A DNA stretch of 30,501 bases from a virus, in IMG/VR virus record IMGVR_UViG_3300020733_000046, positions 1 through 30,501 of that record; one strand, written 5' to 3'. The translations under genes and the position numbers were made by a program. Under the pieces are notes generated by a model. It made no database searches, was not told the origin of the DNA, and saw only the letters and a list, made by a program, of their open reading frames with translations. Shown piece after piece: positions 4,220 to 29,513 of the stretch (position 1 is the stretch's first letter; each line of letters begins with the position of its first letter).

Positions 4220-4267
4220 AAATTATAAATATTTCGTTTTTTGATATATTTTTTGTATCTTTTAAAT

Positions 4268-5281
4268 ATGGAATCAATAGAAATTAAGATAAACTATAAT
4301 TTTTTTAAAGATCTTTTTGACATCGGATGGGATGATGGTAGAGGGTGGAAATCTTTTTATTTCAAAGAAGCTCAAAAATGTTTCAGGAAAAATTATACAA
4401 GATTAAATAAATGGAAACAAAATCCGAATGATTTAAAAAAATGGGGTCATTACGAAAATAATAATTGGTCTTGGACAAATAGAATAAATACTCATCCAAA
4501 TTGTTGTCTATCATTTTACAATTGGGCAATTGAAAGTAATCCAAACATTTTTTACGAAATCGGAAATCCAAATTATCATCGGTACAATGCAAGAAAAATG
4601 TGGGAGTTTGTTGATCAAAATTTTGACTTATTTTTTTCAGAATCAATTGAAAAAAAATATTATCGGGAATTAAAAAGTAATTGTCAGAAATCATGGGTTA
4701 ATGGAAATTTATCTATGATCCCTGTTATTATTAAATTACCATTTATTTTTGATAATGTCACAAATATTGAATATACATTTGACTATGGTGATAGTGGTGA
4801 TATGAATGGTATTGATCTTTCTTTCAAATGTAATGGAGTAAATAAAACTGTACAAATAAAAAGTGGATCTTTCATAAAATCGAATGATGAATTTTTGGTA
4901 AGTGGATCACAAAATAGTTTAGAATATAATTGTGATTATTTTGCTTATGTAAACATTGACAGTTATAAAAATTCAACTTCTTTAATAGTTTTTGATAACA
5001 ACAAAAAACTGATAAAATCTAATAATTATATCATAGTAAAAAATGATTTAATTAAACATAAAGAAATACAAAATATGTCAATACCACAAAAATTAAATGA
5101 AATCGCACAATTATGTTTCAAACAAAATATTGAGTTTATCATGAAAAAAGATGAGAATGTGAATGAAATTATTTATAATTCTGATGATAAAACAATAACA
5201 ATAACATTTTCTGATTTTGAGAATAAACAATTTGAACAAAATATTGATGAAAAAATAAAAGAACTTAAAGGAGACTTTTAA
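4268..5281 (+). CDS. Putative PD-(D/E)XK-fold nuclease
   Basis: Protein of 337 residues from the ATG at 4268; an in-frame TTG at 4241 would add nine residues, but ATG is preferred. The segment GDMNGIDLSF ... VQIKSGS (about residues 178-201) matches the core of the restriction-endonuclease-like fold: D183, then QxK (Q196, K198) twelve residues later, with G-I-D-L and I-K-S-G typical of Mrr-, Hjc- and type II enzyme-like nucleases. The N-terminal 120 residues are rich in W, N and Y and are not recognised. The gene lies alone on the plus strand between two minus-strand genes, and its last 17 bases overlap the 3' end of the intein-bearing helicase gene. A free-standing homing or host-DNA-degrading nuclease are both possible. 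The fold is inferred; the substrate is unknown. Confidence 0.55.
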   Translation: MESIEIKINYNFFKDLFDIGWDDGRGWKSFYFKEAQKCFRKNYTRLNKWKQNPNDLKKWGHYENNNWSWTNRINTHPNCCLSFYNWAIESNPNIFYEIGNPNYHRYNARKMWEFVDQNFDLFFSESIEKKYYRELKSNCQKSWVNGNLSMIPVIIKLPFIFDNVTNIEYTFDYGDSGDMNGIDLSFKCNGVNKTVQIKSGSFIKSNDEFLVSGSQNSLEYNCDYFAYVNIDSYKNSTSLIVFDNNKKLIKSNNYIIVKNDLIKHKEIQNMSIPQKLNEIAQLCFKQNIEFIMKKDENVNEIIYNSDDKTITITFSDFENKQFEQNIDEKIKELKGDF

Positions 5282-8141
5282 TTAAGTCTTTACTAAAAGA
5301 TTCCGAATATTCTCCGTCTCCCATAACTTGATCAATTATTCCTTTCTTTTTCTGAAGGATATTATATATAATCTTTTCAACAGTGTTCTCAAATACAGGA
5401 TAGTAAACGAGAACACTATTTTTTTGACCATATCTATATGCTCTATCTTCTGCTTGACTATGATGTGCAGGGACAAATGACAAATCATTCATAATTACAA
5501 CTTCGGCAGCAGTCAAAGTAATCCCAACACCTCCAGCTATAATGTTAGAAATAAAAACTTTAACTTTATCTTCATTTTGAAATCTATCAACCGCTTCTTG
5601 TCTTCTTTCTTTAGTCATACGACCATCTAATATAACTGAATTTTTTTTGTATTTTTCTTGTATCATATCCAATGTCATAGTAAAATTTGTAAAAACAATA
5701 ACCTTTTTACCTTGATCTAAACATTTATCAATTAACTCACAAGTTGATGGTATTTTTTCATAAGATATTAATTGTCTAATTTTCATTAAACGATTAATTG
5801 TTACACTCAAAGTTTCTTTGTCTTTATTATCATTTGTTATTCTTGTAAACTCCTCTAACTCTTCATCGTACATTTTACTTGTCAGTTCCAAAAATACGGG
5901 TGTAATAATTTTTTCAGGAAGATCTAATATATCCGTTTTCATTCTCCTGAGTACTATATTTTTAGTTCTCTCTCTTAGTTCATCTAAATTACTAGCTCCA
6001 CTGGTGTTCCAAACTTTACGATTACCAACTCTGAACTGATAACCTTTACAATATCTACGGACATAAGACTGCCAATTTAATGTTAATGGAGAATCAACAA
6101 TTTTCAATAAGTTAAAATAGTTAATAGGTCTAGATGTCATTGGTGTTCCTGTTAATAACCAAACTTTAGGAATTTTTTCAAGTACATCATTCAAAAGTCT
6201 TGTTCTGTTAGCGGTAGAATTTGAGATATAATGAGCTTCATCTACAATTGCTAAGTCAAAATTTGCATGAACTAATAGTTTATAATCTTCACTATCTTCA
6301 CTTTTTTCAGTTGTATGATAATTTTTAATTATGTCATAGTTTATTATATAGAAGTCGAAAGTAGATCCCCACTTACGACCTTCAACAATTAACACTCTTC
6401 TATCTGTGTAATTTTTAATTTCTCTTTCCCAGTTAATTTTTAAAGAAGCTGGACATACAATTAGAATCTTCTTTGCTTCACTCTCTAACGAAGCAATAAC
6501 TGCAGAGGTTGTATTGTGAGTAACAATACAATGTTCAGCCACATATAGTTTATCAGGTGAATCAACTGATATACATATTGCCTCACCCTTTCTTTCTAAT
6601 TCTATATTTTTTATATATCTACCAACTTTATATTTTTTGGGTGGATTATATAATATTTTCTTTCTTTCCATTTTGAATGGATTCATATCCCCTTGTAATT
6701 TAATATTAACACGATATGCAATTTTTCCTTCTTTTTTTATTCCTTTGTATGTGTATTTTGGAATTCTACTCGATTTACGAGCAATGCCACCTAAACTATG
6801 TACTATTTCAATTACATCATCGACTAATTTTTCAGATATCGAACAGAATTCAGTTCCTGTAAATTCATTATCTTTTCTTGATTTATTACAAGTACCATCA
6901 GTATCCATCAAACCTTGTAATATACTTAATCTATCTTCAATACTACTAAATTTATATATTTCAGGAATAAATTTATCAATTGAAGTACATCCCATTAATT
7001 CTAATTCTTTTAAATTTTTGATTAAAGAATTTCCACTGCTAATTTTAGTTACAATAGTATAATCACAATTATCTCCTTTTGTTTTTTTTATATCCAAATC
7101 TTCAGGTAATATTTCTTTTATATAATTTATAATTTCATTATCAATGTTACTAAATCTGATTGATTTACCTGAAATACCTCCATCACCTATCAATAGTCCA
7201 AGTAAATAAGGATTTATCGGAAGTTTATTTTGATAATCAAAATTTATAGGTTTAACAATTGGTATTTGCCATTTTGGTTGATTATTTTTAGAAATATAAT
7301 ATGTTGATTGTAATTTATTATTTTTTCCTATATTCCTCTTTAATTGTAATGTATCGTCTAATAATTGTTTTGTGGTTAAATCAATTGTTAATGTTTTTCT
7401 TGAATTACTATTATTACCGTTTGCTCTTGTTGAAACAGTCCAAATATGTTCATCACAACATAAAATAGAATAACCATCATTAAATGTAACACGGTATAAA
7501 TCTTTTATTCCTTGTGGAAAAACACCTGTTACATTATATGAATTACCATCACTTCCAATTACTTTATCTCCAATAGTAAGTTCTCCAATTTTTTTTGTTC
7601 CATTTGGAGTATAAATTTTAGTATTACTTTCTAATGCTTTTCCCAAACCCATGTCATCGGCGAGAATAAACTTATTATTTGCTAATAACTTTTCAATAGC
7701 AATTTTCTGGTGGTCCATCGGAGGTCTAACAGAATATTTGGAATAATCAATTACACGATTTAATTTTTTCTCTTCCTGAACAATAGCGGACTTTGGTAAC
7801 CATAACGCGTGATTTTGTTGACTATCAATAATTTTACCCCAAATATGAAATGCTTTATCTGATTCACATAATAATTTTTCACACCATATTTTCTCAGGAG
7901 TTTTAGGTAATAATCTATCTTCCATAATTTTTTCACCAAAAGTACTAACAATATCGATATATTTTCTAGCGACCTTAGGTGTTACATTATGAAATTTTAA
8001 AACATAATCCGATTGTGGTCTTGTTAAGTTAAAAGACTTTTGATTTTTGAATTTATTTTTCCAATCCAATAATTGATTATTCGAACCTTCATATGTTTCT
8101 AATATATTTCTTGCTTCAATTTCAGGAATTAACGTCTCCAT
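5265..8141 (-). CDS. SNF2-family DNA helicase/translocase interrupted by an intein
   Basis: Precursor of 958 residues; removing the intein (169-543) leaves a 583-residue SF2 ATPase. The exteins carry DDMGLGK|TT (Walker A, split after K168), DEAH at 634-637, LTGTP, and a C-terminal RecA-like half with IAGGVGITLTAA and QAEDRAYRYGQ (motif VI). This is the SNF2/SMARCAL1-like arrangement. In T4-like phages the SF2 helicase UvsW remodels forks and branched recombination intermediates, and a similar role is plausible here. Without splicing the ATP site would be broken, so activity depends on the intein. The gene is divergent from the neck/tail genes at 8192 (50-base gap) and convergent with the nuclease gene (17-base overlap). 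The start is ATG at 8141 behind an AT-only leader. Confidence 0.9.
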   Translation of the reverse strand: METLIPEIEARNILETYEGSNNQLLDWKNKFKNQKSFNLTRPQSDYVLKFHNVTPKVARKYIDIVSTFGEKIMEDRLLPKTPEKIWCEKLLCESDKAFHIWGKIIDSQQNHALWLPKSAIVQEEKKLNRVIDYSKYSVRPPMDHQKIAIEKLLANNKFILADDMGLGKALESNTKIYTPNGTKKIGELTIGDKVIGSDGNSYNVTGVFPQGIKDLYRVTFNDGYSILCCDEHIWTVSTRANGNNSNSRKTLTIDLTTKQLLDDTLQLKRNIGKNNKLQSTYYISKNNQPKWQIPIVKPINFDYQNKLPINPYLLGLLIGDGGISGKSIRFSNIDNEIINYIKEILPEDLDIKKTKGDNCDYTIVTKISSGNSLIKNLKELELMGCTSIDKFIPEIYKFSSIEDRLSILQGLMDTDGTCNKSRKDNEFTGTEFCSISEKLVDDVIEIVHSLGGIARKSSRIPKYTYKGIKKEGKIAYRVNIKLQGDMNPFKMERKKILYNPPKKYKVGRYIKNIELERKGEAICISVDSPDKLYVAEHCIVTHNTTSAVIASLESEAKKILIVCPASLKINWEREIKNYTDRRVLIVEGRKWGSTFDFYIINYDIIKNYHTTEKSEDSEDYKLLVHANFDLAIVDEAHYISNSTANRTRLLNDVLEKIPKVWLLTGTPMTSRPINYFNLLKIVDSPLTLNWQSYVRRYCKGYQFRVGNRKVWNTSGASNLDELRERTKNIVLRRMKTDILDLPEKIITPVFLELTSKMYDEELEEFTRITNDNKDKETLSVTINRLMKIRQLISYEKIPSTCELIDKCLDQGKKVIVFTNFTMTLDMIQEKYKKNSVILDGRMTKERRQEAVDRFQNEDKVKVFISNIIAGGVGITLTAAEVVIMNDLSFVPAHHSQAEDRAYRYGQKNSVLVYYPVFENTVEKIIYNILQKKKGIIDQVMGDGEYSESFSKDLIKSLL
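6513..7637 (-). mobile_element. Class 3 (WCT-type) intein with LAGLIDADG homing endonuclease
   Basis: In-frame 375-residue insertion in the helicase Walker A motif, between K168 and T544 of the precursor. It starts with Ala (ALESNTKIYTPNG), not Cys or Ser, and ends THN before Thr+1. Block B reads CCDEHIWTV (W at intein residue 66), block F reads ICISVDSPDKLY (C355), and block G has T373 before H374-N375. W, C and T in these places with a non-nucleophilic first residue are the defining features of class 3 inteins, in which the block F Cys starts splicing. Two LAGLIDADG-like helices (LLGLLIGDGG, D152; LQGLMDTDGT, D247) indicate a homing endonuclease that should cut intein-free alleles. All key residues appear intact, so splicing and homing are both predicted. 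Confidence 0.93.
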
Positions 8142-28486: not shown

Positions 28487-29158
28487 ATGTTAGAAAAAAA
28501 ATTAATGGAAGAATTAAATCGTTATAAATCCATAAATGGATACAATTATGGTAACGGAAAAAAAATGATTATGGAACAAGAAGCACCAGTAGACCCAACA
28601 GCAGGTGCAATTCCTCCACCACCAGCAGGTGATGCAGGAGCAGTTCCCCCACCTCCTACAGCAGATGATGCTGCAGGTGCAGTCCCTCCACCACCGGCAG
28701 GAGATGAAGGTGCGATGCCTCCGTCAACAGACACAACTGAAGAAGTGGATATTACTGATTTAGTTAATATGACAAAAAGTATCAAACAAGATCTTGACGA
28801 TAACAGAAATGACTATAGTGGTGCAATTCAAAAAATGGATGACGTTTTTACTAAGTTAAATGATTTAGAATCAAAACTTAGTGAAATGGATGCATTAATG
28901 ACAAAAATCGATCAATTAGGTGAAAAAGTTGAATCAATGAAACCTGAAACACCTGTTGAAAAATTAGAAATGAGATCTTTGGATTCTTATCCGTTTAATG
29001 AAAAACCTGACGAATTTTTTAGTCATAAACAAGATGAAATGAGAAAAAGCGGTAAAAATGAATATGTTTTAACTAAAGATGATGTAAATACATACTCTAA
29101 CGACCAAATTAAACAAACATTTAACCCAGAACAAAAAGAAAATGAATATAAGTTCTAA
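28487..29158 (+). CDS. Pro-rich, coiled-coil protein of unknown function
   Basis: Protein of 223 residues in three parts. Residues 1-35 are a basic helical head. Residues 39-79 hold about three and a half repeats of AGA(I/V)PPPPAGD, a flexible Pro/Ala linker. Residues 87-155 form a predicted coiled coil (LVNMTKSIKQDLDDN, MDDVFTKLNDLESKL, MDALMTKIDQLGEKV), and an acidic/polar C-terminus follows. Such a layout suits a virion linker or fibre-associated protein or an internal scaffold; no family is recognised. The last 17 bases overlap the Dps-like gene. Confidence 0.75.
   Translation: MLEKKLMEELNRYKSINGYNYGNGKKMIMEQEAPVDPTAGAIPPPPAGDAGAVPPPPTADDAAGAVPPPPAGDEGAMPPSTDTTEEVDITDLVNMTKSIKQDLDDNRNDYSGAIQKMDDVFTKLNDLESKLSEMDALMTKIDQLGEKVESMKPETPVEKLEMRSLDSYPFNEKPDEFFSHKQDEMRKSGKNEYVLTKDDVNTYSNDQIKQTFNPEQKENEYKF
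28601..28723 (+). repeat. Tandem repeats coding for the PPPPAGD linker
   Basis: Imperfect units begin at 28601, 28634, 28673 and (partial) 28709, each opening GCAGGTGCA-like and containing a run of proline codons. Unit length is 33-39 bases. The region is clearly GC-richer than the rest of the window and could expand or contract by slippage. Confidence 0.8.
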
Positions 29159-29513
29159 AGTAAAGTTTCTTTTAGAGGTACAATTACAAGTAAAAATTAA
29201 CCATTGGCAAACAAGAGGGTATGCTAGACATAAAGCTTTTGACCAATTATACGAAGAATTAGGTGATTTAATTGATACCTTTGTTGAAACGGCAATGGGT
29301 AAGTATGGTAGATTTAAACTGGAAGAAGAGGATACATCACTTTCATTAGTTAATCTATCTGATTTAGATATCAAAAGTTTTATGAAAACTTCAAAAGAAG
29401 CACTTATTCAGTTTACAACAGAATTTGAAAAAGTTGACACAGATTTAATGAATATTCGTGATGAAATCTTAGGTACGTTTAACCAAATAAGTTATTTACT
29501 TACTTTAGAATAA
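29142..29513 (+). CDS. Small Dps/ferritin-like helical protein
   Basis: Protein of 123 residues, all helical. The segment VKINHWQTRGYARHKAFDQL, then YEELGDLIDTFVE, has H21, H30, D45 and E49. The H30-D45 and D45-E49 distances (15 and 4) equal those of the Dps ferroxidase site (E. coli H63, D78, E82), while H21-H30 is 9 instead of 12. The WxxxGxxxHxxxxxxY pattern is also Dps-like. It is shorter than Dps (about 160 residues), so a four-helix bundle would be trimmed. It also fits a family of small uncharacterised phage proteins. Iron storage or DNA protection is inferred, not shown. It overlaps the previous gene by 17 bases and is followed by a terminator. Confidence 0.6.
   Translation: MNISSKVKFLLEVQLQVKINHWQTRGYARHKAFDQLYEELGDLIDTFVETAMGKYGRFKLEEEDTSLSLVNLSDLDIKSFMKTSKEALIQFTTEFEKVDTDLMNIRDEILGTFNQISYLLTLE

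Follow-up and report, generated by a model that had tools for sequence, protein, structure and literature searches.

A class 3 intein with a LAGLIDADG endonuclease in the Walker A motif of a phage SNF2-family helicase

When the ATP-binding motif of a helicase gene is split by a long in-frame insert, the question arises what the insert is, how it would leave the protein and whether it is a selfish element or a device that controls the enzyme. This situation is found in a 30.5-kb virus record (IMG/VR IMGVR_UViG_3300020733_000046, 30,501 nucleotides), the whole of which was analysed and is hereafter referred to as the window. An earlier note, made from the DNA letters, had proposed a class 3 (WCT) intein at the Walker A motif of a phage SNF2 helicase; here we explore which parts of that proposal hold and which explanation best fits the locus.

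The gene (5265..8141; it and all features within it lie on the minus strand) encodes a 958-aa precursor of which the flanks correspond to Pfam domains SNF2-rel_dom (6e-27) and Helicase_C (3e-18). The N-extein of 168 aa (7638..8141) ends in ADDMGLGK, hence with Walker A through its Lys, and the C-extein of 415 aa (5268..6512) starts with TTSAV, in which the Walker A Thr is the predicted +1 nucleophile. Joining the exteins in silico gives a 583-aa helicase in which GLGKTT, DEAH, LTGTP and R.YR.GQ are all in place. The window also codes for a tail sheath, a tail tube, PolB and an SSB-like protein, and the Pfam domains together with the two tail genes bear out that this is the SNF2-family helicase of a contractile-tailed phage. 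The more specific label of a Bacteroidota-type T4-like phage was not established, since the window polymerase shows just 24% identity to Salinibacter phage polymerases, with weaker matches to cyanophages. Contigs that carry intein-free relatives reach lengths of 211-336 kb. Two further genes of the window deserve mention. A 346-aa ORF (4241-5281, listed start TTG) converges on the helicase gene, the 3' ends of the two overlapping, and had no match when compared with Pfam and PHROG. A small protein encoded at 29142-29513, adjoining the SSB-like gene, matches PHROG 858 (starvation-inducible transcriptional regulator).

The insert comprises 375 codons in frame (6513..7637; precursor residues 169-543). 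Its junctions, ADDMGLGK/ALESNT...CIVTHN/TTSAV, fall exactly within GLGK/TT of Walker A. Class 3 inteins are characterized by Trp at B:12, Cys at F:4 and Thr at G:5, lack a nucleophile at position 1 and are usually followed by Ser or Thr (PMC5222942, PMC5050341, PMC6195587). Their splicing relies on Cys F:4, by way of a branched intermediate at block F. In the window intein position 1 is Ala, hence there is no class 1 nucleophile; W66 (7440..7442) is found at block B position 12, C355 (6573..6575), the predicted initiating nucleophile, at block F position 4 and T373-H374-N375 (6513..6521) in block G, where they form the G:5 Thr, the penultimate His and the terminal Asn, followed by Thr at +1. 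Alignment with class 3 inteins from the PDB placed W, C and T at B:12, F:4 and G:5. Among 100 aligned homologues C355, the three block G residues and H64 (His B:10) are conserved in all sequences, with position 66 being W in 95, F in four and H in one; H64, W66, C355, T373, H374 and N375 are also among the invariant columns of a 12-homologue alignment. Pfam recognized LAGLIDADG_3 (5e-12, two stretches) and Hom_end (5e-5) in the insert, with Hom_end_hint under the cut-off. The nearest PDB sequences are the gp41-1 intein, of which the top-ranked entry is a WCT-engineered variant (PMC7664689), and Mycobacterium class 3 DnaB inteins.

Relatives were searched for an intein-free allele by a scan with the C-extein, from which the 80 nearest loci were taken. 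An uninterrupted GLGK-T was found at the same place in 78 of these, whereas two (contigs L002 and L003) carry the intein. The insert is therefore real and exactly bounded. Chance insertion or misassembly was considered and ruled out, given the two contigs that carry the insert at 99.7% and the 78 exact empty sites.

The intein was modelled by AlphaFold with ten extein residues on each side, resulting in a mean pLDDT of 91.4 and a pTM of 0.91. The whole model aligns with PI-SceI-type inteins (Z 25.8). Its splicing domain has the Hint fold expected of class 3 (Z 17.9-18.1 to class 3 structures), aligning with MchDnaB-1 at Z 18.1 (1.8 Å, 128 residues) and with the class 3 Msm DnaB1 at Z 17.9 (1.4 Å, 123 residues). 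Class 1 mini-inteins rank narrowly below these, the Ssp DnaB mini-intein having Z 17.0, and because this margin is slight the class is settled by the signature rather than by the fold alone. Splicing by the class 1 or the class 2 pathway might be considered, since Cys1 and a full WCT occur together, as a mixture of class 1 and class 3 features, in four related inteins at this helicase site (L102, L119, L122 and L123). With Ala1, W66, C355, T373 and Thr+1 in the window intein, and with class 3 structures as the closest matches to its splicing domain among solved mini-inteins, if by a small margin, such a pathway is highly improbable. Hence sequence comparison, the predicted fold and the 78 intein-free relatives support the insert as a class 3 intein, and both the class assignment and the individual residues named in the earlier note stand.

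The same holds for its claim of a full-length intein with an apparently intact nuclease. Both LAGLIDADG motifs are present and helical in the model: LLGLLIGDG (7176..7208) with acidic residue D152, which is D in 95 and N in five of 100 homologues, and LQGLMDTDG (6894..6920) with D247, which is D in all 100. Two such helices with acidic catalytic residues, combined with the PI-SceI-type fold, identify a LAGLIDADG endonuclease. The whole intein has a dN/dS of about 0.14 and the nuclease region, with 0.14-0.15, equals it; the nuclease is therefore maintained by purifying selection, as a homing cycle requires. These data also bear on the idea that the intein has decayed and lost splicing, as did the class 3 intein of Arthrobacter FB24 Arth_1007, which puts a class 3 pseudogene on record (PMC3196547). 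With all catalytic residues intact, an open frame, the low dN/dS and intact helicase motifs, decay hardly seems credible for the window intein.

The intein and its host gene have different histories. The inteins of L004 and L005 are 87% and 86% identical to that of the window, whereas the L004 exteins are just 51% and 57% identical to the window exteins. Intein and extein trees were compared for 24 SNF2 loci of the window type. The intein tree pairs the window with L004 at 100% SH-aLRT support. The clade of window and L004 is rejected by the extein data (p-AU 2.7e-53) and the extein clade that holds the window is rejected by the intein data (p-AU 4.8e-73), p-values that are indicative since the groups were named after inspection of a first tree, with log-likelihood differences in the hundreds. 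For the same pairs, dS is 0.5-0.6 for the intein versus 1.2-1.4 for the N-extein, and GC3 is 0.09 for the intein versus 0.19-0.22 for the exteins; lower intein dS and lower GC3 are what is expected following transfer. The intein has moved laterally between divergent helicases. Intein and extein distance matrices are partly correlated (Mantel r 0.41), therefore the exchange took place mostly inside this set of phages. As a separate observation, L111 and L118 have near-identical helicase exteins with clearly different inteins at one site, which points to replacement or invasion on more than one occasion. A homing target was sought in the DNA flanking the site in the empty alleles, where only codon conservation was found; since these flanks vary mainly at third codon positions, the target of the nuclease is only inferred.

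The insert is best explained as a full-length class 3 intein, probably acting as a selfish homing element, a reading to which we assign a probability of roughly 0.93. At the DNA level, the LAGLIDADG nuclease would cut intein-free helicase copies at the Walker A codons or close by, upon which repair off an intein-bearing copy would install the intein in the cut gene. Lateral transfer and purifying selection lend such homing indirect support. At the protein level, signature and precedent suggest that C355 attacks the peptide bond between K168 and the intein's Ala, that the +1 Thr, i.e. the Walker A Thr, then takes over the acyl group on its side chain, and that N375 cyclises, such that the exteins would join to give an intact 583-aa helicase. 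The phage may tolerate the intein because splicing would restore an ATPase site that is costly to lose.

The position of the insert also invites a regulatory reading, in which conditional splicing, for instance redox-sensitive splicing involving C355 and the neighbouring C60 and C61, times the switch-on of the helicase. A precursor interrupted in Walker A should have no working ATP site, a disulfide on the catalytic Cys inhibits the class 3 P-loop intein of M. smegmatis DnaB (PMC6195587) and the window intein has a Cys at B:7 (C61), three residues ahead of the active-site His. That Cys, however, is common in the family (45 of 100 homologues), 78 of the 80 closest loci lack the intein and the intein moves laterally. 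Sporadic presence combined with lateral movement is more in line with a selfish element that can be dispensed with than with a conserved regulatory device, and we regard conditional splicing as very unlikely. Slightly less likely again is the specific scenario of an intein recruited to control the SNF2 helicase post-translationally, with C355 and C60/C61 forming a redox lock that delays helicase activity during infection. The possible control of helicase activity by splicing, as suggested in the earlier note, has been put forward before for other inteins in P-loops: silencing of an ATPase until splicing has been proposed for P. horikoshii RadA and M. smegmatis DnaB (PMC6195587).

Several known systems resemble the intein described here. 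PMC3196547 and PMC11219805 describe the Deinococcus radiodurans Snf2 intein as class 3, in an SNF2-family helicase and with demonstrated splicing; it differs by its location on a bacterial chromosome and is likened to the window intein by class and host protein rather than by sequence or site. M. smegmatis DnaBi1 (6bs8) and M. chimaera DnaB-1 (6rix, 6riy) share WCT and the Hint fold, with Z about 18. DnaBi1 is also located in a P-loop (PMC6195587) but has DnaB as host, is a mini-intein without endonuclease, is followed by Ser+1 and has Asp at B:7 where the window intein has Cys. Mycobacteriophage class 3 inteins, found in TerL, RecB and others, are likewise phage-borne and several combine LAGLIDADG with evidence for lateral transfer (PMC5050341), although they reside in other host proteins and in actinobacterial phages. 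Helicase inteins such as those of Aeromonas phage AerS_266, Erwinia phage Kwan and Brevundimonas phage Papperlapapp are about 35-39% identical over the full length and share WCT, a nuclease, GK/T insertion and an origin in helicases of large phages, albeit of other phage lineages and other host proteins. The Kwan intein has Asn instead of the first LAGLIDADG Asp, D152 in the window.

A tblastn search with the intein matched 569 phage records, 388 of them over 80% or more of its length; the genes concerned are often annotated as helicase, terminase or DarB-like protein. The 168 homologues that were fetched come from viral contigs, from bacterial genomes and from six phage records taken as a sample; 162 of these have K at -1 and S or T at +1, nearly all carry WCT and the insertion sites, as judged by eye, are mostly P-loops of unrelated ATPases. 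A 2020 survey counted 1701 class 3 inteins, 82.5% of which with LAGLIDADG (PMC7891396), and KlbA was the sole known source of class 2 inteins as of 2011 (PMC3196547). Given these survey counts and the 569 matching records, the statements that class 3 is the rarest class, class 2 being rarer, and that an intact nuclease in a full-length copy is out of the ordinary were wrong. Within its well-known group the window intein is unexceptional, hundreds of relatives occupying like sites in other phage and bacterial proteins. Taken by itself, it lengthens the list of well-preserved class 3 inteins by one. Its value is comparative: one position in a phage helicase that is empty in dozens of relatives and holds several divergent inteins in others, with clearly conflicting intein and extein trees, makes a good natural data set on intein homing in uncultured phages.

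The family further shows variants in signature and site. In L095, L096, L097 and L104 block B has Phe instead of the WCT Trp, with Cys F:4 and Thr G:5 kept, which amounts to an FCT variant. Homologous inteins at L163:2959-4020 and L219:2959-4020 are inserted between Lys and Ser of VDYK/SGK or TDYK/SGK, a site that resembles the catalytic D-x-K of PD-(D/E)XK nucleases and not a P-loop. Finally, in L180-L246, representing some thirty genomes of Streptomyces and related organisms, the same intein family is found at LLQGEVGSGK/TMVALRAM, where the surrounding extein resembles RecG.
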